16,458 bases of DNA. Origin: Gloeopeniophorella convolvens. Taxonomy: Eukaryota > Basidiomycota > Agaricomycetes > Russulales. How positions within the stretch are numbered: position 1 is the first letter of the stretch; each line of letters starts with the position of its first letter. This document shows positions 1-16,458 of this stretch, in pieces. The stretch spans positions 1-16,458 of the forward strand of contig WTXD01000224.1 of NCBI GenBank assembly GCA_022496205.1, written 5' to 3'. The translations under genes and the position numbers were made by a program. The notes under the pieces are model-generated. The model worked only from the letters and a program-made list of their open reading frames with translations. It was not told the DNA's origin and made no database searches.

Positions 1-3000
1 CGTGGAACCCAGTCAATCTCGTTCCGAATGCATTCATCTTCCTCAAGCCACCTCTCAAGCTGTGCTTTAGCTCGGAGCCAGTGTACACGGTGGACTGAAT
101 CTCTTGACATCAGGGAGCTCATGGAACTGTAAGCCTGAGAACTCACAATCATCCATCCATGCCAAGGAGTGGTCTTGAATGTTGCCAAAAGACCAAATCC
201 ATGACATCTGTTTATTTCGTTGCCCATTCTGAGCAGACCCGAGCACGATTGTTGCTACTTTGAGATCTTCCTTCCGGAGTTGCGGCAGAGGCTCACGATC
301 CTCATCAGCCAATCCGAGGCGAGAGAGGGCGTCTCTGGCGATACTATAGACCCTGGCGTGCTCCCGAACACTGGAATCTATGTTCAAGATATCTCCCCAG
401 GCGCGTGTCTTCTTTTTCTTCTGATTCTTGGCGGCTCTCACAGTAGTCCGAAAGAGTGCTGATTTGAGCCCTAAAGCTAGACGGATACGGTGAATGGCAT
501 CGGAGGCCTGGCCTCTTCGGAGCTTGGCTTCCTTGGCAGCTAGTGACTCAACTCCGTGTTTTTGACACCAGTCCCAACCTACTGAAGAGGGCAGGAAAAT
601 CTCAGCATCCTCGACGAATGTCGGCACGGAGTTTGACTCCATGTGGTCATCATCACTGTCGGAGGAGTCTAAAGTGACCGGTGGCAGGGAGGTGCCGAAG
701 TCCTCATTATCAGCATCGTCAAACTCCGCATAGTCCTTAGAGCGGGCCAGGATGACATTGTCCGAAAAGCTATACTTGAGTATCATGCTATCTGCCTGGT
801 GTTGGAAGGCATCCACCGAAGTTTGAAGTTTATGCCTTCGATCTTCGATGGCTGTCTGCTCCAGCATTGTCGCGTGTTTGCCAAGGTTGCGGACATCTCG
901 GCGAAGGGCAGATCTAAATCCGAGAGGCACAGTCAGAACCGGAGAAGTGGTAAGAGCTTGCTACATACTGTGTTTCCTGAATTTTCAAACCGGAGGCAAG
1001 CCATGCCGTTTCCCCTTGCCCGAGATGTTGACTAGTCTCCGTTTGGGCTAATGTCTTGTGAATCTCCGACCTTGATGGTGCTGAGGGGTCATTAGCTCTA
1101 GAACACATGTTTATAAGCGTGAACATACCTTTAGCAGTCTTGGTATCATAAATGTCCATAACTTGATTGTCTTCCCATCTGTGGTTCTGGGCATAGGCCT
1201 CCTGGCAGAGCCACTCAGGAACCTTGCCAGCAAAGCGGGTAGACAGTTTGGTATAAACATCCGCGGCTAATGGAAGTCCAATGGTAACACGCTTGAATCG
1301 GAGAAGAATAGCGGGGACTTTGCAGAATATTATCAACACCGGAGATGTGCGATGCAGAATACACATACCAATGTTAACCAACTTTTTCCAGTTCCAATAG
1401 TTCATATGACTATCTAGAATCTCTTGACGGTGAGCGAGTGTCATTCCTCGGATGCTCCGAGAAACTAGATTCAGTGGAGCCCAGACTGTCTCGATGATCT
1501 CCCCATCAATCTGTCGTGCACCCTTGATAAAGCTCGGGGAGAAACGGGACAGACAGATATCTTGATGTCCGTGAATGTGAAATAGGCCAATTCCAACCAG
1601 GAGTTTTAAAGTTGGCCGTATAGTGAGATGAGGACTCTTGTCAACACGCTTCCGGAGGTGAACACCATATTGGCACATGATGTCATACATAACAAGGGCT
1701 TGCGGGATATCCTCCATATCATACTGAAGGGCATTGCATAGGCTGTAATCCATATTTACTTGTCTGTGATGAGACTTTAGTTGAGGAGAGCAGTGTTATA
1801 GCTCAACAAATGGCTTACCGTTCACCCTTTTGAAAATCGACCACGGAGTTCGGCACATAGAAGCCATGTCCGCATGCTGTTGCACCGACTCCCGTTACAT
1901 CCAGATGTGGTCTAGATGAGTATGCCCGCTCGATTGCCTTGTAGGTATTGCATGTACCATGCTATCTCCGAAGTTAGCAAACTCCGCCATTGAAGCCTTA
2001 GATAGGAACATGCCTGGGAGATTTCTTCAGCATATTTGAGATGCTCCTTGTACTTGAGGGGCTCAACCATAAAGGTGGTCCCAGCCGAAAGAGCAACATC
2101 AGCCTCCGAAGTCCGAGCCCGCATATGTTCAGCAGTGAAGTTGCCATCCATAATGAATGACCGGATGATGCTACCTCTAAGTTGATAGAACTTAGTGGGC
2201 TTTCACTCGGTCAATAAGATAGGCACGCACGGACGAAACCGCTCCTTCCAATCAGGTGGAAGATTTTTGGATGGCTGTGGACATGCCGGGCAGAAAATAG
2301 CGAGATCCCCATCTTGAGGACGATGGTCAGGACTAAAGCCGAAGCCATTGCGCTTCCTTGAGAGTAGATCCCTCCACTGCCGTGCAGCTCGAAGGAGTTG
2401 TTTGTACCGCGTCTGAATATGCAAATCAGGGTAGGAGCTATTTGAATAGATAGTCACTTACCGGTACTCTTTCAGGAAACATTCCATTTGTAATAGTTCG
2501 GAGTTTTGCATAGAACTGTTGAGCCGTTGTTTTGCACTCAAGATTATCAATAAGGAAGTCATCCAGCACGGCGAAAGAGAAGACTGTCTCGATTTGATGA
2601 AAGGTAGCTGACAAGAAGCCCATATCGAAGAGTTGCATGCTGTATGACTTTGCGGAGCGGCAGATGCAGTGAAGGACGGGCAGCCGATGAACTCCTGTGG
2701 TATCAACAAAGGTTTGAGCCAAATTGCCGGTTGTGTCATGTTGTCGCCGTTTACGAAGGGAGAGTCCATCGGCCACAGTGATGTCCGGGGCAAAGAACAG
2801 GTCAGGTGGAGGCAACTCCTGACTGCTGATTGGTGGCTGTGGGATTGTGTTCAAAGTCGGGGGTGAGAGCACAGGATCATCATTCTGGCTGCTACTTGGG
2901 GTTTGATGGGCCAATTCCCAAGCGGCTTGGCGTGAACCCTACAGAACATTAGCTCCTTGGATGAACAATACTCGCATAACATACCTCTACTGTCTCAGGG

Positions 3001-3708
3001 CACGGAGATCCGCCATGTCCAAGGCAAATCATTAGACCAAGCTGTCCTAGAGATGTCCGAGCAAAGTGGTCTGCCGTCCATTGGTAAACTCGGTGGAAAG
3101 GAGTTCGAGAGTGAGATACAAGGCAACATGAGACACAGAACATAGGCCGTCCTAAGCAGTCGGAGCAACGTATGAAAGCATCTTGTGAGCACTTGACACA
3201 CTTCCTAGGCAATGGCGGTGCCTCAGCTTCCAAAAGAGAATCTAGATATTTGTCACGGAGTTCAAGCCATTGATGCATTGGGGACTTTGGGACGAATCAG
3301 ACACTCAAATACTGTTCTAGGGAGATAGTAACGGTATCAGCATACCTGTGTTGTTTTACCGGAGTTTGTGGCAGGTGCTGATGAATCCGTTGCTGCGTGA
3401 TCCAAGGGACTGCAATCATCAATATCTCCAGGGTCAGGAGCAGGCCCATTCAGGTGCATCTGGTGATGTGGAGAATCTGGGGGAGGTGTGGCCTGCTGTA
3501 TCACCGGCGTGAAGGCCATCGGAATTGCATCCCGACGACTAGCACGCTTGTTGGTAGTCGTAGGAGGATCTCTGGAGTTTGCTTTTGGGGCTCTCTCCCT
3601 CAGGATACGCTCCGATCCACGAATTCCTCGTTGTGTTTGGGTGGTACGATGTTCCAGTTCCAGAACATCACTCTCTGGAACAAGCTGTGCTCCACGACCA
3701 CGGCCCAT
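1..3708 (-). CDS. KDZ transposase with CxC2 cysteine cluster (C-terminus cut by window edge)
   Basis: Predicted cut-and-paste DNA transposase of the Kyakuja-Dileera-Zisupton superfamily. Exons (complement): 3708-3346, 3284-2985, 2938-2462, 2412-2231, 2176-2014, 1961-1819, 1763-1369, 1317-1129, 1080-969, 913-147 and 94-1 (partial). This gives about 1061 residues with no stop or frameshift, and all ten introns (46-61 nt) agree in phase. The start MGRGRG at 3708 is the only suitable ATG in its exon. Residues 150-185 form the CxC2 B-box-like zinc site (CX2CX7CX2CX6CX2CX4HX5H). The RNase H-like core shows MDGNF (Asp 451), MYDIMCQ (Asp 570) and HIHGHQD followed by IDGEIIE (Glu 631/634), the acidic positions expected of this superfamily. 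The C-terminal part keeps the family's RVHWLRAKAQ stretch. Intron 5 (2013-1962) uses a GC donor. Intron 4 (2230-2177) removes an in-frame TGA. The copy may encode a full protein. Confidence 0.9.
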
Positions 3709-3841
3709 ACCGTCAAGTAGGCCTCGAGGGGAGGGGAGGAAGATTATATTGATGGACAGACATTCAGCTCTAAGAACAGCGCAATATATATTATTTTGTG
3801 CCCTAGTGGCAATACATCCGGAGTTGCGAATATCACAGAAG
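3709..3841 (-). promoter_or_regulatory. Spacer upstream of the KDZ transposase
   Basis: This short gap separates the stop of the Zn2Cys6 gene from the transposase start. It must hold the terminator of the first gene and the promoter or 5' leader of the second, unless they share a transcript. It contains an AT-rich run near 3784-3797 and one copy of the element motif, CCGGAGTTGCG, at 3818-3828. No clear TATA box was identified. Confidence 0.35.
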
Positions 3842-5418
3842 TCACTTGGACACATTCTTGGCCTCAGCTGCACGAAAAGCCCTAACAAGCCCCGTAGCCT
3901 GTTCGAATGCTGTACCCAAGTCTGTGACTACTGCGTCATCACTCGGGGCACTAATGAGGCCCATGAGCTGAGCCATGCCAAGGACCAACACCCTGATCTC
4001 GTGAAGCTCAGCCTCCATATTCGCCATACCATAGGCGATCTCATTGAAACCTATAGTAGGGGGCTCAGGTTCGACTGACTGGTCCTCGGAGATAGTGACC
4101 GAAGGGACATGATCAACATCCATGGAGTTGGGGTCCACAGGATGTGCGTTGTCGGTGGCAGTAGAAGGCCCAGCTATGGGTATCGATGCTAAGGGTTCCG
4201 AGATTGATAATCGTCAACTCCGGGAACTCAAAACAAGTAGAATGGTACTGACGGGGTGCCGCTTGAAGGGGGGAGATAGATGCGGGACGAGGTGCCTTTC
4301 GCACAACACGGAGAGGCGGCACCCGGAGTGATGAGGGGTCGCATCTGATCTTGGCCTTTTTACAGGCTTCGCATGCCTTACTACGTCCTCCTCCTTCAGG
4401 GGCCACACAGACTAGCCAGAGCTTATTACACCTGACACAGCTGTGCTAGGCTATAATGAGTAAGGAAGACACTCCGAGTGGCTGACTGATAGCTTACAGG
4501 GTTAAGTCGGGGTGCCCGCTCCTTCCCTCGCCTACGTGGCGGAGTCTTGGACAGTACCTCGATGGCTGATGCCTTGGCAGCCCCGTCCAAAACAAGAACA
4601 GATCCTCCATTAGATGAAGGAGAGTCTGGAGTTTCGAGTTCAAGGTCACGTTCATCGAACTCGACACTCTCGTCTTCCTCATCCTCACCAAGGACCTCAG
4701 GGTACTCAACTGAACTAGCACGAATGCGGCTATGGGGGTACATGTCCGGCGCATGGCGTAGTGGTTCACTTTGAGAGCGTGTCGGAGATGCACTGAGGCC
4801 AAGTTCACCTGCGTATATGCAAGTTAGATAGGTAACATATTTATTATCTGAATCACACACGTTCTTCCCTGCGGAGTTGCGCCAGCTGATCACGTGTCAA
4901 TGAAACCATCCACCAGCGTTCCCGCATTGGGACACGGTTAAGGTATGGTTGGAGGTCGGTCGTGAGGGGGATGCGCCGTGACTGAGGATTGACAGGTACT
5001 GCTCGGGAATCATCTGCCCGGATGGCAAGAAGGTTCACAGGCTCATTCTTTTTGATGCATGCCATCTCTGCAGCGGCACTCAGAATGATTGGGTGCAGAG
5101 GGAGGGGGTTGCCAGAGTTCGCATAGCTTAGACGACATGTGGACGCAGCAGCCTGCAGAACTGTAAGCCTTATTTGGAGGAGTTAGCAGACAAATGGATA
5201 CGCACCAACTCCTGTGCAATTCCTGATATAAAGAAGTCAACGCTGACACCAGGGCTCAAGCGGAACTTGGTTAGAGCACTGTCTATGCATGCAGCAGTGA
5301 CGAGGAGTCTGTCCGCCGGGTCGGTGATGTATGCTCGCTCTATACCTTCAATGATATCCACGGGTTGAGCTGTAGCAATAGGGGGAATGGCATCTGGGGG
5401 AGTTGGAGTGCCGGACAT
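3842..5418 (-). CDS. Zn2Cys6-type cysteine-cluster protein, KDZ-element accessory gene
   Basis: Five exons (complement): 5418-5206, 5152-4861, 4808-4498, 4445-4253 and 4188-3842. They encode 451 residues in consistent phase. The start is MSGTPTPP; the reading frame opens further upstream, but no other ATG is available. Residues 275-307 read C-X2-C-X6-C-X11-C-X2-C-X6-C, which fits the Gal4-type binuclear zinc cluster spacing, so DNA binding is a reasonable inference. The second half (KACEACKKAKIRC) is lysine-rich as in true Zn2Cys6 proteins. Unusually, the cluster sits in the middle of the protein, after an acidic Glu/Asp/Ser-rich stretch and a basic patch (PPRRRGKERAPR). The C-terminal ~100 residues look helical and follow an acidic VEPEPP linker. 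It is transcribed in the same direction as the transposase, with 133 bp between its stop and the transposase ATG. Role in transposition or in regulating the element is inferred only. Confidence 0.8.
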
Positions 5419-5725
5419 AGTGCTCACAGACCCAGTATGCAGAGAGGAAGGAGAGTGTGAGGACAAGAGAAATTCCCCAAAGCCCCTTGTGAAAAGTCTT
5501 TCTCTATTGTGGACGTAGGATTGATATGCTGATTCCGGTGCAGCTTATGTCCCGATATACCCGAGGTGACCCTACATTGATCAAATAGAAGGCCATTATT
5601 GCAAATCCGGACTCCGGAGATGTCTCACCGCCATTTGGGTTGGGTTGATAGATTTGCCGGAGGAGTTGAACGATTCAAAGGAGACTGCCTTGCGCATCAA
5701 CTCCCCGGAAATTCTAGAGGCAAGT
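5419..5725. promoter_or_regulatory. Divergent promoter region between the two gene pairs
   Basis: The 307 bp between two head-to-head start codons hold no gene and probably contain both promoters. I see no convincing TATA box. The region holds a double CCGG site at 5605-5619 (ATCCGGACTCCGGAG, with the palindrome CTCCGGAG at 5612-5619) and a GCCGGAGGAGTTGAAC stretch near 5656-5671. Both resemble the CGGAGTT motif spread over the element. Confidence 0.45.
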
Positions 5726-6746
5726 ATGCCACCACGCAAGGTTACTCCTTCGTCCTCCAGAGTTCCCACTAGAAAGGTCGAGGTTGTCATTACAACCAAG
5801 CCGCCATCACGGCAGAAGACATGTATGTTATTCTTACCTACCGTGGGTTGTGGCAGCATTTACTAATAGGCTACAGCGACGGCATCAGCTTCTCATGTTG
5901 ACAATGCCATGGCACCAGTGATAGTGGCTCCAAGTGCTCTCGCCGGAGTATCTCTTGACTTTGCTGGCCTATTGGATGACTTTGACGATGTCCCAAACGT
6001 CGTGGAGGATTCAACTGGGGTGACAGACATTATTATTGACTCATCTCAGCCCCTGGAGAAGAGCCTTACGCCTCCCCCACCATCACAGCCACGGGAATGG
6101 GGCCTTCCACCTCCGCCTCCATCTCAAACTCAGGAAATAACTCCTGCCCCTCCACCGCCCTCACAGCCACGCGAAACAACACCAGCGCCCCCCCCTTCCT
6201 CTCAGCTCCGTGACAGACTCCGGGCCTCCCCTCCTGTGCCCACGGTTGAGGATATAGAGCAGGTGGGTGCACATCAAGAGCCGTCAGAGAATCAGGCAAA
6301 AAAATAGCAGGTGGTCAGGAAGCAGAGGTGCGTACTCCGAGAGGTACATAATGTAAATTTTGCTTCTAACATTACATGCCTTCAATAGATCATAGGAGAT
6401 GAGGATCATGTCATGGAGATGGAGGCGGCTGGGTCCCCACAGAACATTGACCTGTCCTTCGATGCCAAAGTAAGTCAAGAGTGGGATCATTTTAGGTAAC
6501 TTTCTAATGGATGTCTTGTAGATGAGCACGCCCATAGGTCATGCACTCTCGAGCAGCCCAGGTTTCCTGATAAAAGACTCAATTCTCGACTGGATGTCAG
6601 AGTCGGATGATTCACTCAACTTTGAGGGTGCAGCTGAGGAACTCCGGTCGATAGCTGCCACATGGGATGGGCACGCTCGGAGACTGCGTAGGTTGGCGGC
6701 CTATCTCGATGCATACACGGAGGCATCGTCATCTCATGTAGAGTAG
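5726..6746 (+). CDS. Proline-rich hypothetical protein, KDZ-element accessory gene
   Basis: Five exons (5726-5822, 5877-6262, 6308-6343, 6389-6469, 6522-6746) encode about 274 residues. I do not recognise the family. The start MPPRKVTP is the only in-frame ATG. The N-terminus is basic and Ser/Thr-rich. An acidic segment (LLDDFDDVPNVVED) follows, then about residues 97-145 hold four imperfect ~15-residue repeats built on PPPPSQ-x-RE. The C-terminal ~75 residues look helical and end in a charged stretch (ARRLRRLAAYLDAY). Intron 1 has a perfect TACTAAT branch site. Intron 2 removes an in-frame TAG, and exon 3 is only 36 nt, so the middle of the model is the least certain part. It lies 204 bp upstream of the next plus-strand gene. 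Confidence 0.65.
6066..6213 (+). repeat. Imperfect minisatellite coding PPPPSQ repeats
   Basis: Four diverged units of about 45 nt, each encoding Pro-rich text ending in SQ(P/T/L)(R/Q)(E/D), lie inside the proline-rich gene. The DNA copies differ at many silent sites, so the array is not recent. Confidence 0.6.
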
Positions 6747-6950
6747 TGCGTAGTAAAATAATTGGCAACAAGGAGCTGTTTGTGATCTCAACCTTGAACC
6801 TCCGGATGAGACATATCACCGCACCGATCTTAGCTGCAAATGTGAATAACTCCGGTCGAGGTGCAACAGTGTCAGATGGACCGGAGTTGCGCCATCTCCC
6901 TCCCCTCTGTCATACTAACACGTCACCTCTACGGTTTTTGACCTCTACCC
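6747..6950 (+). promoter_or_regulatory. Spacer and likely promoter of the WFxNH gene
   Basis: This 204-bp gap between two co-directional genes carries two copies of the element motif in opposite orientation: AACTCCG at 6848-6854 and CGGAGTT at 6882-6888. They are 27 bp apart and within about 100 bp of the downstream ATG. I saw no obvious TATA box. Confidence 0.4.
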
Positions 6951-9226
6951 ATGGCTCAAGGCACTGACGATGACTTTTCCTTCGACAATTTCGATGAGGA
7001 TGATGAAGAAGAGGTCTCTGACCATAATCCTGCCACCTCCGGAGTTGGCATGAACACTCAGCCAGCAACTCGATTGTCGCCAGTGGTACCCCCTCCTGCT
7101 GTCTCTGGTGGCTTTAAACTCCTTCCTGAGGATTCCGAAGTCCTTCGTCACTATCTTGAAGAGTTTCAGGATGCAACCTCTCCTACACGCAAGGACTTGG
7201 TCGAGCGAGTAGTTAACAAGATCTACCAGACTCGGCCTCACACAGAAAAAGTTGACAAGGTGGTAGCACGCATAGTACGTTGCCTATGTGGTCACCAACT
7301 ACTCTGATGAATAGTGATTGTTCCATAGAAAGTCCGGAAGTGGTTCTATAATCACTGCAAGCTAGCCACTCGCCCATTCATGAAATTTGTTCGGCGGTGG
7401 TCGGCTAGGCTTGTATTCTATCAGGAGAACTATGAGCGCATCATGGTCCTTGCTGAGGAGTTATCAGGGGAGCCCAGAGGCTCCCGTGCTTTCCTGGCAT
7501 CTCTCCAAGATGCTACAACTCGCCTGCTCAATGAGTGCACTGATGATGAGCTAGAGGAGTTACAAACTCGTGCGGAGGAGTGGTCAGAGGTATCTCCACC
7601 TCCGGAGGTTCAACACCGGCAAGAGTTCTAGTCTTTTCTTGCTGCGTAGTCTAATCAATGTAACAATCTCATCTTAGCATGGCGGAGAAAGTCCGCCACC
7701 GCATCATTAGGGACTTCCAGGATCAGATCTACCGCTTCTGTGGCATTCGTACATTTGTTCTCATCGCTTTCAAAGGTGAAGATAATAGGGTTCGCACGTC
7801 TGCGTGAGTTATCACCTCCTACTCAACTCCAGCAGTCTGATTTGTTGATATATAGGGAGGAGTGGAACACGTATACGAAGGGAGACAACTTCACTCGTTA
7901 CTATCCAAATTGGAGACAAGTCACACTTTGGGACTCCTGGAACAAGTACGCAAAAGAAGCATTCTTAGGTGGGCTTTGTCAGTAACTCCGAGCACATAAT
8001 GCTAACTATGCATTCAAGCTGATGAGGTTGTTGCTGCGGAGCGGCGTTTTCGTACGGTGCACAAAAATATTGAAATTGAGTTCGCTCCCAATGGTTATCC
8101 GCTCCTTCCGGACATCAAGGCTGCAGACAACTACCATGTTAAGAGAATCCAGTGTATGGTACGGGACTATATGACAGCCCACCTTAGTAGGTCCTCCACT
8201 CTGGAGTTAGCTCAGGGCTAACATGTGCCTAGAATATTTTTCCAAAAGGTCGAAGGTTGCCATCCCTTGGTCACGCCTCATCACCGAGCCTCTGGAGTGG
8301 ATGACAGCTGATTCTATGCCAGACGGTTTCACTTGGCGGGAACCATCTAAGCTGAAGATTGGTGCACTCTGGGAACTCCTGTCCCACTGGAGGTCCCGCG
8401 TCAATGACGGCCTCCCTTGCATTCAGTGGGCGGACTCATGCCCTTTCCTTGCTGATCTAGACTCTCCAGTTCCGACAACTCCGCCACCACACCCTGCTCG
8501 TCCTGCTATACATCTAGAAGCAGCATCTATACCCAGCCAACATCATACAGTTCTGTCAACATCCTCACCAGATCCTGTAGTGGATCCGGAGACCCCTCCA
8601 CATCCACGACGCCCGCGCATCAATGAGGTTGTGTTACCTCCTGCTGTAGAAGATAGTCCGGAGGACAATTTCTGGAACCCTCAGCCCGACATGCTACGTA
8701 CTCCAACACCCACCGGACAAGCACCCGCGAGGGCACTGAGGGTGCTGGAGCCATCCCCACCACCGGAAGAAAGATCCCCAACCATCCCTCGGCGGAGGCC
8801 GTCCGCCCGAATGATCATCCGGTCCCCTACTAATGCCAGCAGTGGCCAGGGGGAAGTTGGTATGCATTTTCTTCTTCAGCCAATACCCTGACTGATGGAC
8901 ATGGTAGGTGGTGGTGCGAGGCTAGCTATAGTGCCTCCGAGTGGTGGAGTGTCACACCATTCATCATCAAGCAACCCCTCTGCATCCGCGGGAGGCTCAG
9001 CAGGCACTGCTATGCCCCTCAAAAAGAAGAAGGCACTCCGAAAGACCTTGCAAGCCAGCTCCCCCAGCTCCCCAATCCTTATAAGGGAGAAGAGGGTACG
9101 CAAAACGACGGAGAAAGCTCGGTGTGTACAGTACAGTATCACCGGGGTTATCACTAACAGCACTTCAGAAATGCTGATACAGGGCCTGGAGCTGGACGTA
9201 TGCCTCTGGCCATCTTTAACAGCTAG
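6951..9226 (+). CDS. WFxNH (homeodomain-like) protein, KDZ-element accessory gene
   Basis: Eight exons (6951-7274, 7329-7618, 7678-7803, 7856-7968, 8019-8186, 8233-8859, 8908-9121, 9169-9226) encode about 639 residues with all phases matching. The N-terminus is acidic (DDDFSFDNFDEDDEEE). Residues 109-119 read KVRKWFYNHCK, which resembles helix 3 of a homeodomain (WFxNR). The rest follows the layout of a large basidiomycete family of uncharacterised proteins as I remember it: a PPPEVQ linker, an EKVRHRIIRDF helix with a 'CGIRTFVL' strand, a 'YPLLPDI' segment, and KVAIPWSRL with FTWREPSKL near the middle. A Pro/Ser-rich, basic tail follows. Introns have good branch sites (GCTAAC in introns 4 and 5). 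Intron 2 (7619-7677) appears to use a GC donor; a weaker GT donor at 7631 is the alternative. DNA binding is inferred. The exact C-terminus could differ if a GTATGC donor at 9198 is used. Confidence 0.75.
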
Positions 9227-9521
9227 TGAAGGGATTGGATAAATGTAGTGTGACCATAGTACCTGCTGCAATTTCATGTTCTTGCATTGTTCTGCTCTAG
9301 CAACTACTAGCGGAGTTCAGGAATGTGGCACTATCATATTGGAATCCGGAGTTGAACAATTCGGTGATAGTCAACTATTGTGAGCGGAGTTCCGTAGTCT
9401 TTCTCAGCCAATGATTTCCAGAGATGATCATGATTGATGTGTGCAGTGGCTATCTTAGAAACACAGACCAATATGGTAGGTACATGAACATCGAGGACCG
9501 GGGTCTACCCTCACATTACCA

Positions 9522-9718
9522 GCCGACATCGGCCAGGACATCAACTCCGAAAACTGCACTGGCCCGAAAACTGCACTGGCCGACATCGGCTAGTTCATGC
9601 GCACCAGCGACCCCATGTATGCCAGCCGACATCAGTTGCCTGGTCAACTTCGGAGACTGCACCGATGTCGGATGGCCCATCGGAGTTGAAGGTTTTATAT
9701 GATTCGGCCGATGTCGGC
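9522..9718. repeat. Cluster of GCCGACATCGGC repeats, three direct and two inverted
   Basis: The near-palindromic 12-mer GCCGACATCGGC occurs at 9522-9533 and 9579-9590, and a diverged copy starts at 9625. The inverted form, GCCGATGTCGGC, is complete at 9707-9718 and partial (CCGATGTCGG) at 9662-9671. Three copies facing one way and two facing the other can fold into a large stem or present paired protein-binding sites. Confidence 0.75.
9548..9581 (+). repeat. 17-bp perfect tandem duplication
   Basis: The 17-mer CGAAAACTGCACTGGCC occurs twice without a gap, at 9548-9564 and 9565-9581, within the right subterminal region. The first copy overlaps an AACTCCG motif. Confidence 0.85.
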
Positions 9719-9727
9719 CAACCCATG

Positions 9728-9739
9728 AACTCCGGAGTT
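9728..9739. repeat. Perfect 12-bp palindrome AACTCCGGAGTT
   Basis: Two copies of the element motif are fused head to head to form this palindrome, about 40-50 bp inside the inferred right end. The scattered copies elsewhere are mostly single half-sites. Confidence 0.8.
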
Positions 9740-9780
9740 GTTCACAGTCAGTTCTCTCACTAGACACGGAAGTCCGTAGT

Positions 9781-9981
9781 GTGAATTATGTGGTTCTGCT
9801 CGGTCGCCCGTTCGACACGCTCACCGAATCGGTGGTCCAGAACTATCGCAACGAGGACCAGACAATCACCATCTCCGACCCGAACACTGGTCGCAAGGCT
9901 ACCGTCCTGACGGTCGCACGCGGATCATTCCGACTCGCGGAACGTCGGCTCCAGGCTAACCTGCTGTCGGCGGATTTTTGA
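9781..9981 (+). pseudogene. Ty3/Gypsy retropepsin, C-terminal fragment
   Basis: The frame reads VNYVVLLGRPFD and then an ITISDPNTGRKATV segment, matching the flap-distal end of fungal Gypsy proteases (LLGRPFD is the conserved ILGxxx-type core). The catalytic DTG triad and everything before it are absent, because the sequence switches to KDZ element sequence just upstream. The frame stops at TGA 9979-9981 and overlaps the RT frame by a few bases at a run of five Ts. It is therefore a gene remnant, joined to pol either by a programmed -1 shift or by a decay mutation. Confidence 0.8.
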
Positions 9982-12900
9982 GTATCGATGATTTGGTCGC
10001 AGACCAAGGAGAGCTCGCGTGCGCATTTACCTTCGACCCTGATTCAGAGGAACCACTTTCTTTAGATGCGTTCGCAGAGATACCCGCGAATCCTACGGAG
10101 GAGGATGTCGCATCCGCATATGTTTCGCTTTGTGATTCGGACTCGCCCGCATTCAACACGCTCATGCAGACTCGGTTCATTGAGGGCGTCGCGCAACCGA
10201 CCCCAAGAGCTGAGTCGTCTTCTCATTCTTCTTCTCTCGTGTTTTCTGTTTCGGATACGGACTCTCTTTCGTCCCGCATAGATGCCGCGGGATTCTCACA
10301 CTCTCTTTATCACCCGACTTCGCGACCCAACGCGCCCCTCGCTGTGTACGCGAAGAAGTACAAACCCGTCGCGCACAAGGTCAGACCCGTAGAAGCAGAG
10401 CTCCCGAGCTGCTTCCGGATCGTGCGTAGCATCCAAGGCGACCCTCTCGCGGACATGCCGACGCTCAACCCGAATCCGCCCGACTTCACGCCGACCGGTC
10501 GTTACACGACAGAACGACGGGATCAGTTCGATTCCGTCCACAAGGGGGATTTCCTTCTACCCGAAGAGCGGAAGCTGATGCACCACTTCATGATGCAGCA
10601 GAGCCAGGGCTTCGCGTGGGACGACACGGAACGCAGTCACTTTCGGGAGGACTTCTTCCTGCCAGTAGACATCCCGACGATCCCGCACAAACCGTGGACC
10701 CAGCGCAACATCCCGATTCTGCCGGGAATCTACGACGAGGTCTGCCGCCTCATCAAGACGAAGATTGCGGCGGGCGTGTACGAGCCGTCCAACTCGTCGT
10801 ACCGGTCGCGATGGTTCTGCGTCGTCAAGAAGGACGGGAAGTCTCTGCGGATCGTCCATAGCCTCGAGCCACTCAACGCGGTGACCATAAAGCATGCGGG
10901 AGTGACCCCGTTCACCGACCAGATTGGTGAGCACTTCGCGGGTCGCCCATGCGGCGCGATGCTCGACCTCTACATGGGATACGATGAACGGGGATTAGCT
11001 GAGTCCACCCGCGATCTTACGACGTTCCAGACTCCTTTCGGTGCCCTTAGACTCGTTACGCTACCGATGGGTTGGACGAACTCGGTACCAATCTTCCACG
11101 ACGATGTCACGTACATCCTGCAGCCCGAGATTCCCCACGTGACCGTCCCGTATATCGACGACGTTCCCGTGCGCGGCCCCGAGTCGCGCTACCTCCTACC
11201 CGATGGTACGGAGGAACGTATAGCGGAAAACCCGGGCATCCGTCGCTTCGTCTGGGAACATTTCCAGAACCTCAACCACATGGTCCAGCGCGTCAAGTAT
11301 TGCGGCGGCACCTTCTCGGGCCACAAGTTACTCCTTTGCGGGCCCGAGATCACCATAGTCGGTCACCGTTGTACGCCGGAAGGACGCCTACCCGACCCGG
11401 CGCGCGTGGACAAGATTGTCAAGTGGGGCCCCTGTCACAATGTCTCGGATGTTTGCGCATTCCTCGGGACCATTGGAGTTTGCCGTATCTTCATCTCCAA
11501 CTTTGCTCGTCGCGCTAACGCCCTTGTACACCTCACGCGCAAGGGAGTACCTTTCGAGTTCGGACCTGAACACCTTGCGGCACAAGAGGACCTTAAGAAC
11601 GCGCTTCTCACGTCACCCGCGTTGCGACCGATCGACTACTCATCGGCCGCGCCAGTTATCCTCGCGGTAGATACGTCCCCGATCGCAGTGGGGTTCTACC
11701 TGTGCCAAGCCGACCCCGATAACCCCCGAAAGCGTTACTTCGCGCGATTCGGATCGATCCCCCTCGATGATCGCGAACGGCGCTTCTCGCAGCCAAAGCT
11801 CGAGCTGTTCGGATTGTATCACGCGCTCAAGGCATACAAAGCGTACCTCCTAGGCGTCCGCAACCTCGTCGTGGAAGTCGACGCGCGTTACATCAAGGGG
11901 ATGCTCAATAACCCGGACATCGCGCCTTCGGCGAGTATGAACCGCTGGATCGTAACGATACTGACGTTCCACTTCACACTCGAGCATGTTCCCAGTGAGC
12001 GGCATGGACCCGATGGGCTCTCGCGTCGACCCGAGCAACCCAGCGACATCCCCGAAGCAGAAGATCCCGACTTCGAGGACTGGATCGACAACCTCTACGG
12101 CTTCCTGCACCTTCTCAACCCGGCTCCCGCTTCTTCGCTCTCTTCTTTCTCTCTTTTCTCTCTCGCAGCCGACTCGGTACCCGGCGCGCCGCCACCAGAT
12201 CACGATGGCGAACCCGAAACCGAAGATTATACCCTCATTCCAAGATCAGAGCAAGCGGTCCAAGCAGACGCGCGCGTCGCGCTAGTCCACGACTGGCTGA
12301 CGTTCTTCAAGCGACCACACGAGCTTTCCGACCGCGACTTTGCGGTCTTCATCCGGTACGCATCCGACTTCTTCCTCGACGAAGGTACTTTGTGGCGGCG
12401 CGATCCGCAGGGCGCACACAAATGCGTACTCTACGCAAACCGGCGGATGGAAGTGCTTCGCGCGGCGCATGACGACACAGGCCATCGTGGCTACTTTGCG
12501 ACCCGAGCCCTCCTCGCAGAACGGTACTGGTGGCCTTTCCTCGGCTTCGACGTCACGTGGTTCGTCAAGACGTGCCACCTGTGCCAAGTGCGACAGACGA
12601 AGACCATAGCGATCCCGCCAGTCGTCGCGACGCCTGCGCCGCTGTTCGCAAAGATGTACATGGACACGATGCATCTCCCGCGTTCCGGCGGGTTCTCCTA
12701 TATCGTCCAGGGTAGATGCTCGCTGACGCACTTCCCCGAGTTCCGCATGCTTCGGACAGAGACTGCGCAGACACTCGGCGAGTGGATCTTCCAGGACATC
12801 CTATATCGCTGGGGAACGCTTGTGGAGATCGTCTCGGACAACGGGAAGCCCTTCGTCGCCGCGCTCGGGTACCTCGAGAAGAAGTATCATGTCAAGCACA

Positions 12901-13205
12901 TCCGCATCTCGGGCTACGACTCACGCGCGAACGGCATCGTCGAGCGTTCCCACTTCGACGTTCGGCAAGCATTGTACAAGGCAGCGGACGGCGAGCAGTC
13001 GCGTTGGGCACAGGTGGCGTACTCAGTCTTCTGGTCGGATCGGGTCACGGTTCGCAGGCGCATGGGTTGTTCCCCCTACTTCGCGGCGACCGGCACGCAC
13101 CCAGTACTTCCGCTCGACATCCTCGAGGCGAACTACTTGCTTCCGCCTCCCGAGTCCATCCTCTCGTCGACAGATCTCATTGCGCGTCGCGCAATCACGT
13201 TGTAG
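9978..13205 (+). CDS. pol: Ty3/Gypsy Pol: reverse transcriptase, RNase H, integrase (degenerate end)
   Basis: One open frame of 1075 codons, probably not starting with its own ATG but read on from the protease by a -1 shift at the T run near 9975-9979. Reverse transcriptase motifs include LDLYMGYDE and the catalytic YIDDVPV (about residue 391). RNase H shows AVDTS (about 562), KLELFGL, EVDARYIKGM and the final HGPDGLSRR aspartate. Integrase has the HHCC finger (GHRGYF, then CHLCQ; about residues 830-870) and the DDE core: MDTMH, SDNGKPF and NGIVERS, with the last two acids about 35 apart. The frame ends at TAG 13203. The expected C-terminal text continues in frame (KRLDQLSLLRDRVHAARNRA) past this stop and a second stop at 13272. 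All catalytic residues are present, so it decayed recently, but it cannot make a normal full Pol. Confidence 0.88.
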   Translation: MSIDDLVADQGELACAFTFDPDSEEPLSLDAFAEIPANPTEEDVASAYVSLCDSDSPAFNTLMQTRFIEGVAQPTPRAESSSHSSSLVFSVSDTDSLSSRIDAAGFSHSLYHPTSRPNAPLAVYAKKYKPVAHKVRPVEAELPSCFRIVRSIQGDPLADMPTLNPNPPDFTPTGRYTTERRDQFDSVHKGDFLLPEERKLMHHFMMQQSQGFAWDDTERSHFREDFFLPVDIPTIPHKPWTQRNIPILPGIYDEVCRLIKTKIAAGVYEPSNSSYRSRWFCVVKKDGKSLRIVHSLEPLNAVTIKHAGVTPFTDQIGEHFAGRPCGAMLDLYMGYDERGLAESTRDLTTFQTPFGALRLVTLPMGWTNSVPIFHDDVTYILQPEIPHVTVPYIDDVPVRGPESRYLLPDGTEERIAENPGIRRFVWEHFQNLNHMVQRVKYCGGTFSGHKLLLCGPEITIVGHRCTPEGRLPDPARVDKIVKWGPCHNVSDVCAFLGTIGVCRIFISNFARRANALVHLTRKGVPFEFGPEHLAAQEDLKNALLTSPALRPIDYSSAAPVILAVDTSPIAVGFYLCQADPDNPRKRYFARFGSIPLDDRERRFSQPKLELFGLYHALKAYKAYLLGVRNLVVEVDARYIKGMLNNPDIAPSASMNRWIVTILTFHFTLEHVPSERHGPDGLSRRPEQPSDIPEAEDPDFEDWIDNLYGFLHLLNPAPASSLSSFSLFSLAADSVPGAPPPDHDGEPETEDYTLIPRSEQAVQADARVALVHDWLTFFKRPHELSDRDFAVFIRYASDFFLDEGTLWRRDPQGAHKCVLYANRRMEVLRAAHDDTGHRGYFATRALLAERYWWPFLGFDVTWFVKTCHLCQVRQTKTIAIPPVVATPAPLFAKMYMDTMHLPRSGGFSYIVQGRCSLTHFPEFRMLRTETAQTLGEWIFQDILYRWGTLVEIVSDNGKPFVAALGYLEKKYHVKHIRISGYDSRANGIVERSHFDVRQALYKAADGEQSRWAQVAYSVFWSDRVTVRRRMGCSPYFAATGTHPVLPLDILEANYLLPPPESILSSTDLIARRAITL

Positions 13206-13310
13206 AAGCGCCTCGATCAGCTCTCACTCCTTCGCGATCGCGTTCACGCGGCACGCAACCGCGCGGCCATCTAGTTTGAGCGGGACCACTTCGCGTCCAT
13301 TCGGGACTTC
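13206..13310 (+). pseudogene. Decayed integrase C-terminal segment of the Gypsy fragment
   Basis: Directly after the pol stop the same frame continues as KRLDQLSLLRDRVHAARNRA, then a second TAG at 13272-13274, then FERDHFASIRDF. This matches the coiled stretch after the integrase core in fungal Gypsy elements. Similarity is lost after IRDF, so the chromo/SH3-like tail and the 3' LTR are missing. Confidence 0.65.
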
Positions 13311-13466
13311 GCACAACTTGTTGCCAGCTGTATAGGGTCTTTGGTATACCGGATCATCTCGGTCCGGTTCTTTCCCGGGCCCAGCGGATGCACTACGCAC
13401 TGTATGGATACCAGGGAATTGAATGTCTGTAACCAGAGGGAACTTGAGCGCGCAGATATGTACAAA
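13311..13466. other. Junction between Gypsy remnant and SPT5-like gene
   Basis: These 156 bp lie between the last recognisable Gypsy codons and the stop of the minus-strand SPT5-like gene. They probably hold that gene's 3' end. I see no LTR, polypurine tract or clear polyadenylation signal. Confidence 0.4.
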
Positions 13467-16191
13467 TTATGTATCAAGAATGGGGACTACATTGTCTTGA
13501 ATGAACATGACGGATCGATCAGGCCCAGGGAACGAAGCATCGAATTGGACACGATACCACGCAGTGCCAGTCTCGCGCTGGATCCTCTCCTCCACTTTGC
13601 CGACCCATCCTACCCACTCACCGAGTACGATTACGACTTCGCTCCCAACCGATGGTGGCCATGGGACGAGATGCCGCGGGTCCGCGGACACCTGCGTCGG
13701 AACTCGCCCTTCCACGACGTTCACTATGACCTCCCCTGGGTTTGGAAGGAATAACCTCTCGGCGAGGATCACCGTTTTGGCCGACTTCTTCCGCGCAGTC
13801 GACTTCCCTCCGCTTGTGTTAGGAATTGACAAGGCGAGGTGTTTGTAGGCGAGCAGTGTCTGGATCTCCTTTGTATGAATCCAGTGATCTTGCGCTGTAA
13901 ACGGTTTTCACTACGTAAAGATGCGTGATCTACTACGACTTACGGTCACGGAACAGGGTTATGGGGGGGTTGTCAACCGCCAGAGAGGGTGGCGGCGGCG
14001 TTGCTCGGCCGCTGTCTTCTATGTCAGGGGGCGGCGGGGTCACTGTTCGTGGTTGGGGTGATGGCTCGCGCATTCTGTCAGCCCACTTTTCCGTACTAGC
14101 AATGTCATATCAGTATACATCTTGCCTAGAGACGACGCGGCTTACACGAGCGCGAGGTGCTTCCAAGGGAACCACTCCTCGTGATGGCTGTACACTACGT
14201 AGTACGAATGCAGTTGTACACTCGCCCCGTCTTCGTTGCAGCCTTTGACACTGCCGCGATGTCCCTTCATGGGCCCCTTTGTCACCATGACGTCCTTGCC
14301 CGAGAGGTGCACCACAGTCGCGCCGTAGAAATTGATCACTTTGTCTTGCTTTGCACATATGCGGACTTCGGACACGTCAAGGATGACCTGTAACACGCAA
14401 CAATCAGCCATGGAATGCTCAATTATTCTCCAGGTTTACTGTGCGTACCTTTATGTGGTTGTCTTCGGGCGCGAGCCGGAGTTTAGTCCCCTCGTGGGAC
14501 AAAATGCGGGCGCGCACGAGTCCCATACGGCCAGTCTTCTCTTCTACGCGGTCGAATTCGACCCAGAGACCCGGCGGAAACTTGCGCCCCAGCCACTCCG
14601 GTTCGTCAAATTCAACGGCGTAGGTGTTCGTTGGCATCTGCTTTCAATCAATGGGGGTTACAAACCTAAGGTTCTGACACACCTCGACCATGTAATCCAT
14701 ATCTACGTATACCAGCTTGTTGGTTTCATAGTCTGCCTGGATCACTACACCCCTGGACGTAGACCAGTGGGCCTTGACCGGGTCCCCAGGAATGAAATAC
14801 GGGACCATTGAATCCACGTCCAAGATGCTGCGCATCTCAGGTAGGCTTGCGCCTGCTGAGTTTCCCCTGGCGACAACTTGCGCTTTTCTGTCAGTGACCC
14901 TGTCGGCATACCCTACCAGCCCTTGCAGCTCCCCAGACGTCACCAGTACTCGCGTGCCCTGTTTGACTGTGTCGTGGATGCTGCGGAGAAGCCAGGGAAC
15001 AAACGTTGGCTCGTCCCTAAGAGTGGCCGACCCGAAAAAAGGGGTTAGATCTATCGGTGGCGAGGTGCACGCGCGAACGTGAGTCGACGGAATGGGCCAG
15101 AATACAACGTGGTCGTCATATTTGACGTCGTCGAGCAGGTAGCAACCGTTTTCTTGAAGCTTGACGCGATGTCGGCCCCACTCTTCCAGGGCTTTGTCGA
15201 CGTCCCAGCCGTGGGGTTCAGGGCGGGAGGCCCTTTTCCTCTTCGATGCGCGCGGAACGCCTTCGCCTTCCCGAGCATGGCTGCGCAGATCCGCCTTGGG
15301 GCGGAGTCTTGGAACCAGGGCGACCACGAGGTTTTGGTCGTACTCGTCGTTCTTGTCGAACACGAAGCCTACGTCTCCGTGGTATCGACCGAGGTCGCAG
15401 CGCACCCACTGCCCAACCTCGATCTTCTCTCGAAGGAGGGCGCGTGAATGCAGTAGAGGTGGGCGCGAGTCCAAATCGATCAAGACTGGAGGGGTGGGCA
15501 GCACGAGAACTAGCCCTGAGATCGCATGGGTCACGGCAGAGCGCCCCAGAGATTCGATGAAAACATAGCCAGGGATGCTATCCCTGCTGAAGGCGCTGGC
15601 TATTGCGGGCGACCGGGATCCGGTCGCCTGAATGGAACGCCTTGCCAATTGGAATACAACGTCTCTCTCGCACCCCCGCTGTGCAGGCGCGATGAGAACG
15701 GTGGCTTTCTGGGATACAGAATAGTTGTTCATACCTTCACTTTCACACACCAGACGTCGGGGTCGTTGATGTGTGAGAGCCTGAGGTCCACGGGGAACGA
15801 GTCGTCCGCCGAGGGGTCGCGCGGCCGGGCGTTGGAGGCAACAGACCTAAACCTCTGCGCATGCTGTTCAGCATCCCGTGCAGCTTCCTGGACGCTCTGA
15901 TCGCTGCTCAGAAGCCTGTTTGCTCCGAGGGTATCATCACCCTCTTCATCAAGGCCTTCCTCGAGGTCATCTCCATCGTCTGGCCACCATGTTAGCACGA
16001 ACCGTTACCGGCGGGCAGGCATGGGCGCACCGTTCAAGAAACCATCATCTTCCTCATCCTCCTCCTCCTCCTCCTCCTCCCTGTCATCGCGAATGGCTTC
16101 CAAGTCCAAGAAGCGAAGACCCTATCGCTATTTGTAAGGCATCATTCCGTGAGGTGCATGCAATACATACCGGATAGTCTGAAAGGGACAT
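13467..16191 (-). CDS. SPT5-like transcription elongation factor paralogue (NGN + KOW domains)
   Basis: Eight exons (complement): 16191-16171, 16121-16031, 15979-15735, 15678-14683, 14637-14449, 14387-14146, 14095-13944 and 13894-13467. They encode 787 residues. All seven introns (45-61 nt) keep phase. The N-terminus (RFLDLEA, then a Glu/Asp run and GFLND) matches the acidic start of Spt5. Residues 110-187 form the NGN domain (DVWCVKVK, AFSRDSIPGYVFIES), which in Spt5 binds Spt4 and RNA polymerase II. KOW-like domains follow near 205-240 (VGQWVRCDLGRYHGDVG), 365-395, 415-450 and 543-570 (VMVTKGPMKGHRGSVKG). After a Pro-rich linker (VTPPPPD), a last KOW lies near 735-765 (VGSEVVIVLGEWVGWVG). 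It is shorter than a canonical fungal Spt5 (about 1000 aa or more) and I see no C-terminal heptad repeats. It is thus more likely a divergent paralogue than the essential SPT5. Function is inferred from domains. Confidence 0.85.
16050..16081 (-). repeat. GAG trinucleotide run coding poly-glutamate
   Basis: About seven GAG codons in a row (CCT units on the plus strand, 16058-16080) lie in exon 2 of the SPT5-like gene and extend its acidic N-terminal stretch. Such runs change length easily. Confidence 0.8.
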
Positions 16192-16458
16192 GATGTGAGG
16201 TGCTAGTGTATGAGGGAGGATAGGGGGCGCGAGGCTGAGCAACCTGGACCACAGAGGCGGCGTTTATGTACCCTCTGACCTGTGGATAAGTGGAGTCAGG
16301 TATGCGGGTGAAAGACGTAACACAGACTTAGCACGGCGGGGTGGGCACAACTCCAGGCACACCGACGTCTTGTCCATACTGCGCAGTAGCTAAACCCTGG
16401 GCTGCATGATCAGCACGCTTCCTTATACTTGTCTTTAGGGTACTCTCCGTTGTTATCC
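16192..16458 (-). promoter_or_regulatory. Presumed promoter of the SPT5-like gene
   Basis: This gene-free flank precedes the SPT5-like start codon. A TATAAGG sequence lies on the minus strand at 16421-16427, about 230 bp upstream of the ATG, which is rather far for a core promoter unless the 5' leader is long or has an intron. Nothing else was recognised. Confidence 0.3.

Follow-up and report, generated by a model that had tools for sequence, protein, structure and literature searches.

We analysed a stretch of 16,458 nucleotides (the window), corresponding to contig WTXD01000224.1 of Gloeopeniophorella convolvens (Russulales), together with the rest of this one genome (36,680,048 bases in 404 contigs). 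Positions 1 to 9760 of the window belong to a KDZ DNA transposon, here called W, whose left end is missing at the contig start and whose right end lies near 9760, the position at which the 80% similarity of its end region to another contig (C359) breaks off. The ratio of observed to expected CpG is 0.66 in W vs 1.19 to the right of it. W encodes two features by which KDZ transposons are recognized, the transposase core (914 to 2012, minus strand; PF18758, E 4.5e-27) and the associated CxC2 cysteine cluster, which lies in an open reading frame (ORF) at 2438 to 2914 (minus strand; PF18803, E 3e-16). A third feature of such transposons is a duplication of the target site, some 7 to 8 bp long. Upstream on the same minus strand, a domain with the six-cysteine layout CX2CX6CX12CX2CX6C (4341 to 4439), referred to here as Zn2Cys6-like, is joined to the transposase in the deposited gene model P0121 (minus strand, 5418 to 148, 1424 codons); it is possible that the two parts are two genes, given a methionine-led stretch at P0121 residue 467. 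A plus-strand gene of unassigned function (7329 to 8888) has no match in Pfam and has relatives by tblastn in two other KDZ families of this genome (C276, C83 and C5). Scattered through the whole of W is a seven-base word, CGGAGTT, and these two related families carry different words of their own in the same dispersed manner.

CGGAGTT is the most frequent 7-mer of positions 1 to 9777 (25 copies; the runner-up, which overlaps it, has 20). All 25 starts listed in an earlier note on this DNA are exact matches (15 on the plus and 10 on the minus strand), and the remainder of the window (9778 to 16458) holds the single copy, at 14477, that the note had reported. The word occurs 3443 times in the genome, from which 0.92 copies would be expected in W, a 27-fold excess (Poisson probability about 10^-26.5); expressed as density, it is found at 2.6 per kb in W vs 0.094 per kb genome-wide, so the finding that would have undone the proposal, an equal frequency throughout the genome, was not made. 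Positions 1 to 9300 alone contain 18 copies, where 0.87 are expected at the genome rate. Markov models of the element expect 1.89 copies at order 2 and, at order 3, where the model absorbs part of the motif, 4.9. CGGAGTT had been picked because it was conspicuous, and the best 7-mers of control stretches were hence scored on the same scale: the top score is 19.1 in W vs 3.8 to 6.5 in eight control stretches (seven controls, plus a second Plavaka stretch at 5.5). W is near single-copy in the genome. Its end region has one other genomic match (80% over 9576 to 9760, on C359), which is located in a locus with four copies of CGGAGTT, and a search for dense pairs of the word across the genome returned 11 places vs 37 for the reversed control, with no sign of a further dense CGGAGTT element.

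P0121 exons contain eight of the 25 sites, which occupy several frames and both strands: 275 to 281, 627 to 633, 2499 to 2505 (in the CxC2-coding exon), 3360 to 3366 and 4872 to 4878 on the plus strand, and 550 to 556, 722 to 728 and 1980 to 1986 on the minus strand. Among the 17 outside, 3819 to 3825 (plus) and 4216 to 4222 (minus) lie between P0121 exons, and 1844 to 1850 and 3256 to 3262 (both plus) fall within segments that match relatives at the protein level, so that the exon count depends on the gene model. Further sites are at 6640 to 6646 and 6848 to 6854 (minus), 6882 to 6888 and 7040 to 7046 (plus), 7984 to 7990 (minus, between segments supported at the protein level) and 8477 to 8483 (minus). 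The remaining seven form a subterminal cluster at 9311 to 9739, within 430 bp of the right end, with sites at 9311 to 9317, 9347 to 9353, 9385 to 9391 and 9681 to 9687 (plus), 9543 to 9549 (minus) and an overlapping pair (9728 minus, 9733 plus) that makes up the palindrome AACTCCGGAGTT at 9728 to 9739. The spread over exons, introns and spacers claimed earlier holds, except that the site at 1980, which had been called intronic, is exonic in P0121. The same end carries a second, end-only palindrome, GCCGAYRTCGGC, in five copies at 9522 to 9718 (9522, 9579 and 9707 exact; 9625 and 9661 with two mismatches). It has six matches in the window vs 2.5 expected, a number reached by 6 of 200 shuffles, and is notable by its clustering, not its number.

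An artefact of composition, of codon use or of an old tandem repeat would be the plainest explanation of the excess, and it gains some ground from the way the 7-mer was chosen and from the raised expectation of the order-3 model, yet 25 vs 4.9 copies still gives P of about 10^-10. Synonymous-codon shuffling of the P0121 exons (1382 of 1424 codons placed) gave a mean of 1.23 copies and a maximum of 6, and none of 2000 shuffles reached the 8 observed. A second exon set, built from protein-level matches to relatives, contains 7 copies vs 0.88 by codon shuffling (0 of 1000). Outside the P0121 exons, 17 sites compare with 0.53 expected at the genome rate; together with the shuffles, these bear out the claim that coding cannot explain the copies. 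The weight matrix of the 40 best sites of W is CCGGAGTT, with flanking positions of at most 0.3 bits each, and because the flanks are not shared, the copies do not derive from some longer repeated sequence. A tandem-repeat search of W found no array of CGGAGTT. Composition, codon use and tandem repetition were set aside as the cause in view of the codon shuffles, the unshared flanks and the lack of an array; unrelated control stretches of the genome are also without the same excess, and an artefact of this kind has next to no chance of being the answer.

Using the transposase as query, we detected 33 matching segments in the genome, and DNA comparison resolved two KDZ families related to W, here called A and B. 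Family A is represented on C276, C83, C165, C117, C164, C115, C220, C6 and C89, to which C21 was added later (about 92 to 99% alike over shared stretches), and family B on C5 and C9 (best stretches 89 to 93% alike). The copies in one family do not count as independent, and we treat the whole as three families, not as a dozen cases. The word of W is not common to its relatives: in 29 overlapping loci around the other KDZ matches (L010 to L038), CGGAGTT is missing from 28 and present once in the other. Each family has a different top word, which goes beyond what the earlier note had proposed. In family A the word is RCACGGACCGTKC and in family B it is C[T/G]GAGCAAACA; the words of all three have C[G/T]GA in common.

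On C276 (family A), CGGWCCG was found 35 times in 10 kb vs 0.22 expected, and ACGGWCCGT 27 times in 10 kb vs 0.13 at the genome rate (488 copies genome-wide); positions 1 to 9777 of W contain no CGGWCCG. On C5 (family B), CTGAGCA occurs 45 times in 17.4 kb vs 3.1 at the genome rate (6476 copies genome-wide), and 27 times in the internal 13 kb of the element vs 4.8 expected. The C5 element is complete; its word abounds between about 34 and 51 kb, is rare outside and ceases at the element borders. The ends of this element are imperfect inverted repeats (455 bp, 85%) in which the word forms arrays with a period of about 71 bp, oriented forward in the left end and reverse in the right one, and the right end of W with its seven sites resembles them. 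Some sites of family A are also in local arrays, with a period of 14 to 16 bp. Top 7-mer scores range from 19 to 63 in W, C276, C83 (28), C21 (23) and C5, vs 3.8 to 6.5 in the eight controls, and are lower in the decayed family A copies on C165 (12.4) and C117 (9.2) and in the family B copy on C9 (11.8). Four copies of CGGAGTT are present on C165 (L042 6262, 7171, 7260 and 9701), within the 3.7 kb that follow the family A part, and the first of these sits in a stretch 94% alike to C5 (L042 6247 to 6941); there may be another repeat carrying CGGAGTT at this place.

The dispersed word is established for the W, A and B group and not for KDZ elements at large. KDZ segments were found on 28 contigs, 12 of which belong to W, A and B, and among the other 16 we analysed stretches of C368, C369 (two places), C342 and C1. 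Neither C368 (top 7-mer score 3.5) nor the two places on C369 (about 3 kb each; 3.3 and 4.0) has a word. The score of C342 (31.4) is owed to a 42-bp tandem array at one place, and that of the C1 stretch (9.1 in 3 kb, 6.4 in 8.55 kb) to a cluster at one end. Closer inspection of C1 showed that CACGTGA is clustered at C1:39619-40313 (L005 76 to 764), where ACCGGT is clustered as well, and at C1:50154-51588, with little between, and that these places flank the KDZ segment C1:41953-42741. This is the layout expected of sites confined to the ends, and CACGTGA probably marks the subterminal regions of a further KDZ family here. Outside this genome, a scan of viral contigs found no relatives, and proteins of about 50% identity were listed from Lactarius, also in the Russulales.

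We also noted AT-rich tandem arrays with units of 42 to 43 bp on C342 (L055 1474 to 2596) and on C83 (L050 3374 to 4110 and 5145 to 5881), and the two facing arrays of C83 resemble the termini that a small non-autonomous element would have. To the right of W in the window, an ORF that encodes RNase H and integrase domains starts at 9978 and probably belongs to a Ty3/gypsy-type element; beyond it, an ORF with Spt5-type NGN and KOW domains is encoded at 14644 to 15750 (minus strand).

The Zn2Cys6-like domain co-occurs with the words. The six-cysteine layout, with the spacing of Zn2Cys6 proteins, was found in W, in four stretches of family A (C276, C165, C117 and C21) and in family B (C5), and in none of 12 other stretches (five from distant KDZ loci, seven controls). 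The usual half-site of zinc-cluster proteins is CGG, and the words of W and of family A contain it. The likeness to fungal Zn2Cys6 (Gal4-type) proteins has limits: the lysine-rich half of the domain comes second here and first in the classical domain, and the CGG and CCG of the family A word are separated by one base, unlike in classical sites. Six-frame Pfam scans of positions 1 to 9777 returned only KDZ, CxC2 and a weak zinc-binding match, with neither Zn_clus nor a VANC-type domain among them, and a search of PDB sequences with the domain returned one unrelated phosphate-loop protein only. The Zn2Cys6-like sequences of family A (L057 4948 and 6444, L041 1582, L042 919 and L045 9544) seem to be of at least three different kinds, and two of these are adjacent on C21 (L057).

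Another explanation places the information in the CpG of the motif, which would then be an epigenetic mark read by host or element and kept by selection. It draws on C276, where 88 of 221 CpGs belong to CGGNCCG sites, which occupy 3.1% of the length, and where CpG is otherwise depleted (observed/expected 0.25 outside sites), and where 40 of the 43 substitutions at these sites in nine other copies of family A are CpG deaminations (17 further positions are gapped). W and family B do not fit. The core of the word in W is [C/A]GGAGTT, and AGGAGTT, which has no CpG, is itself enriched 14-fold (13 copies vs 0.93 expected), with the products expected of CpG loss scarcer (TGGAGTT 5, CAGAGTT 2); CGGAGTT accounts for only 24 of the 415 CpGs of W, and the word of family B has no CpG. 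In view of the enrichment of AGGAGTT and the word of family B, the CpG was set aside as the code. CpG-based marking is not supported as the common principle, the CpG of the motif is not required, and a selected CpG mark is highly improbable. The transposon stretches on C140, C276, C83 and C5 show CpG depletion with an excess of TG/CA, and because of this and because substitutions at the sites are nearly all CpG deaminations, methylation-driven mutation is suggested in G. convolvens. No TET/JBP match was found in the genome, in a search whose control was silent too.

What did stand of the earlier note is its other proposal, an element-wide recognition code for the transposase or an accessory DNA-binding protein, which is well supported by the dispersed words of A and B, by their lack in eight controls and by the Zn2Cys6-like domain in all three families. 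A protein encoded by the element probably binds the word, to judge from the sequence, along the entire element and most densely near its ends, and the machinery of the element would thereby distinguish its own DNA from that of the host. The co-occurrence of domain and word slightly favours the Zn2Cys6-like protein as this binder. Because the family words spread far beyond what end recognition needs, the protein may mark the entire element as self. The closest known case is that of the VANDAL transposons of Arabidopsis. In VANDAL21, the nine-base motif YAGTATTAY is bound by VANC21, which takes methylation off the element, and related VANC proteins act on other VANDAL families (PMC5735166, PMC10398659); the target motifs are in part arranged in local tandem repeats and are mainly non-coding (PMC5735166). 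The G. convolvens elements share with them many copies of a short motif along a DNA transposon, different motifs in related families (three families and three words here), local tandem repeats of some motifs (here in family A) and a fast-evolving element-encoded protein as candidate reader. They differ in that W belongs to another superfamily, not to the Mutator-like elements that carry VANC, and to another kingdom, and in that its motifs also lie in exons; binding and demethylation, as described for VANC, would be putative here.

We rank a VANC-like marking as the most likely use of the word and binding at the ends for transposition as its chief rival. The likeliest use would be to keep silencing off the entire element or to undo it, as VANC does on VANDAL, and the protein might secondarily assist transposition at the ends. 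As a statement about use, anti-silencing is tentative and falls somewhat short of an even chance; the reading as a whole, in which a protein made by the element binds sites particular to its family, crowded towards the ends and scattered through the interior, is about evenly balanced. The rival would have a transposase or a TnpA-type protein bind the ends for transposition, with the internal copies as a by-product or as a means to fold a long element into the transposition complex and with no role in silencing. CACTA (En-Spm) elements offer the model: each family has its own motif, repeated in both subterminal regions and recognized by TnpA, a second protein of the element, and from one family to the next motif and protein vary greatly (PMC2613891). 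A repeated subterminal motif is likewise found at the right end of W, in the seven sites within 430 bp, and at both ends of the family B element with its period of about 71 bp, and the two CACGTGA clusters of C1 (39.6 to 40.3 kb and 50.2 to 51.6 kb) indicate what end-only sites look like in a KDZ element. The transposase here is KDZ and not CACTA, however, and the words are not restricted to ends: the 18 sites in positions 1 to 9300 of W and the 27 in the 13 internal kb of the family B element far exceed expectation, and the separate palindrome GCCGAYRTCGGC at the end of W would suit end recognition. Binding for transposition alone is unlikely, while remaining the strongest competitor. Self-marking for another purpose is less probable again; target immunity, by which the element would avoid insertion into itself, fits dispersal over the whole element, and autoregulation by a zinc-cluster regulator fits the typical role of Zn2Cys6 proteins as transcription regulators, yet sites at promoters alone would suffice for the latter and the sites are found throughout.

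Several observations weigh against a VANC-like marking by a Zn2Cys6-like reader. Eight of the 25 sites of W are in exons, above the level of codon shuffles, whereas VANC sites are mainly non-coding, and in Cryptococcus, KDZ copies are reported to have almost no CpG methylation (PMC12810828). Codon shuffles are weak in the related families (37 of 1000 in C83; 13 and 22 of 1000 in C5). In family A, 52 of 93 aligned sites are intact between C276 and the nine other copies, and C83 keeps 7 of 22 sites where all windows give 0.77; this pattern is decay, not conservation, with mutation of the methylation type eroding the word in older copies. Family B counts in favour, as its CTGAGCA sites are better preserved than controls: 16 of 18 and 15 of 17 of those aligned are intact vs 0.62 to 0.67 in controls (P 0.02 to 0.04, both directions from one alignment), while conservation of GAGCAAA is not significant (P 0.05 to 0.35). 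The co-occurrence of word and domain comes from a small sample of three related families, and the six-cysteine layout was not found in two stretches of C83 (family A) or in C9 (family B). In W the domain falls below the cut-off of PF00172 (19.9 vs 21 bits), with a match to positions 1 to 14 of 39, which is one half only. The structure model of its exon is poor (pLDDT 53) and was not used, and the first 448 residues of P0121 as query gave nothing at E up to 1 among 7999 candidates scored.

In excerpts of the literature on fungal KDZ elements (PMC12730594, PMC12810828), a KDZ core with a CxC cluster and a length of about 10 kb and more are described, as in W, and neither a dispersed family word nor a Zn2Cys6-like partner is mentioned. 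Even if the word serves transposition only, the parts of the literature covered by our survey report no family-specific word that runs along a whole KDZ element. To our knowledge, sequence-specific anti-silencing of transposons is known from one plant system. It is conceivable, if rather doubtful, that KDZ elements evolved a self-recognition code independently of the plant VANDALs, in which the Zn2Cys6-like protein and the element-wide word, present in exons too, change together, so that protection or activation by a family would be limited to its own copies even where close relatives share the genome. The discoverers of VANC expressed interest in whether other kingdoms have conserved the host machinery for anti-silencing (PMC5735166); with a single fungal genome that offers three words, and a zinc-cluster candidate linked to each, this question becomes experimentally tractable. 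If true, such a code would explain how related transposons stay separate within one genome, and it would offer new pairs of words and proteins.

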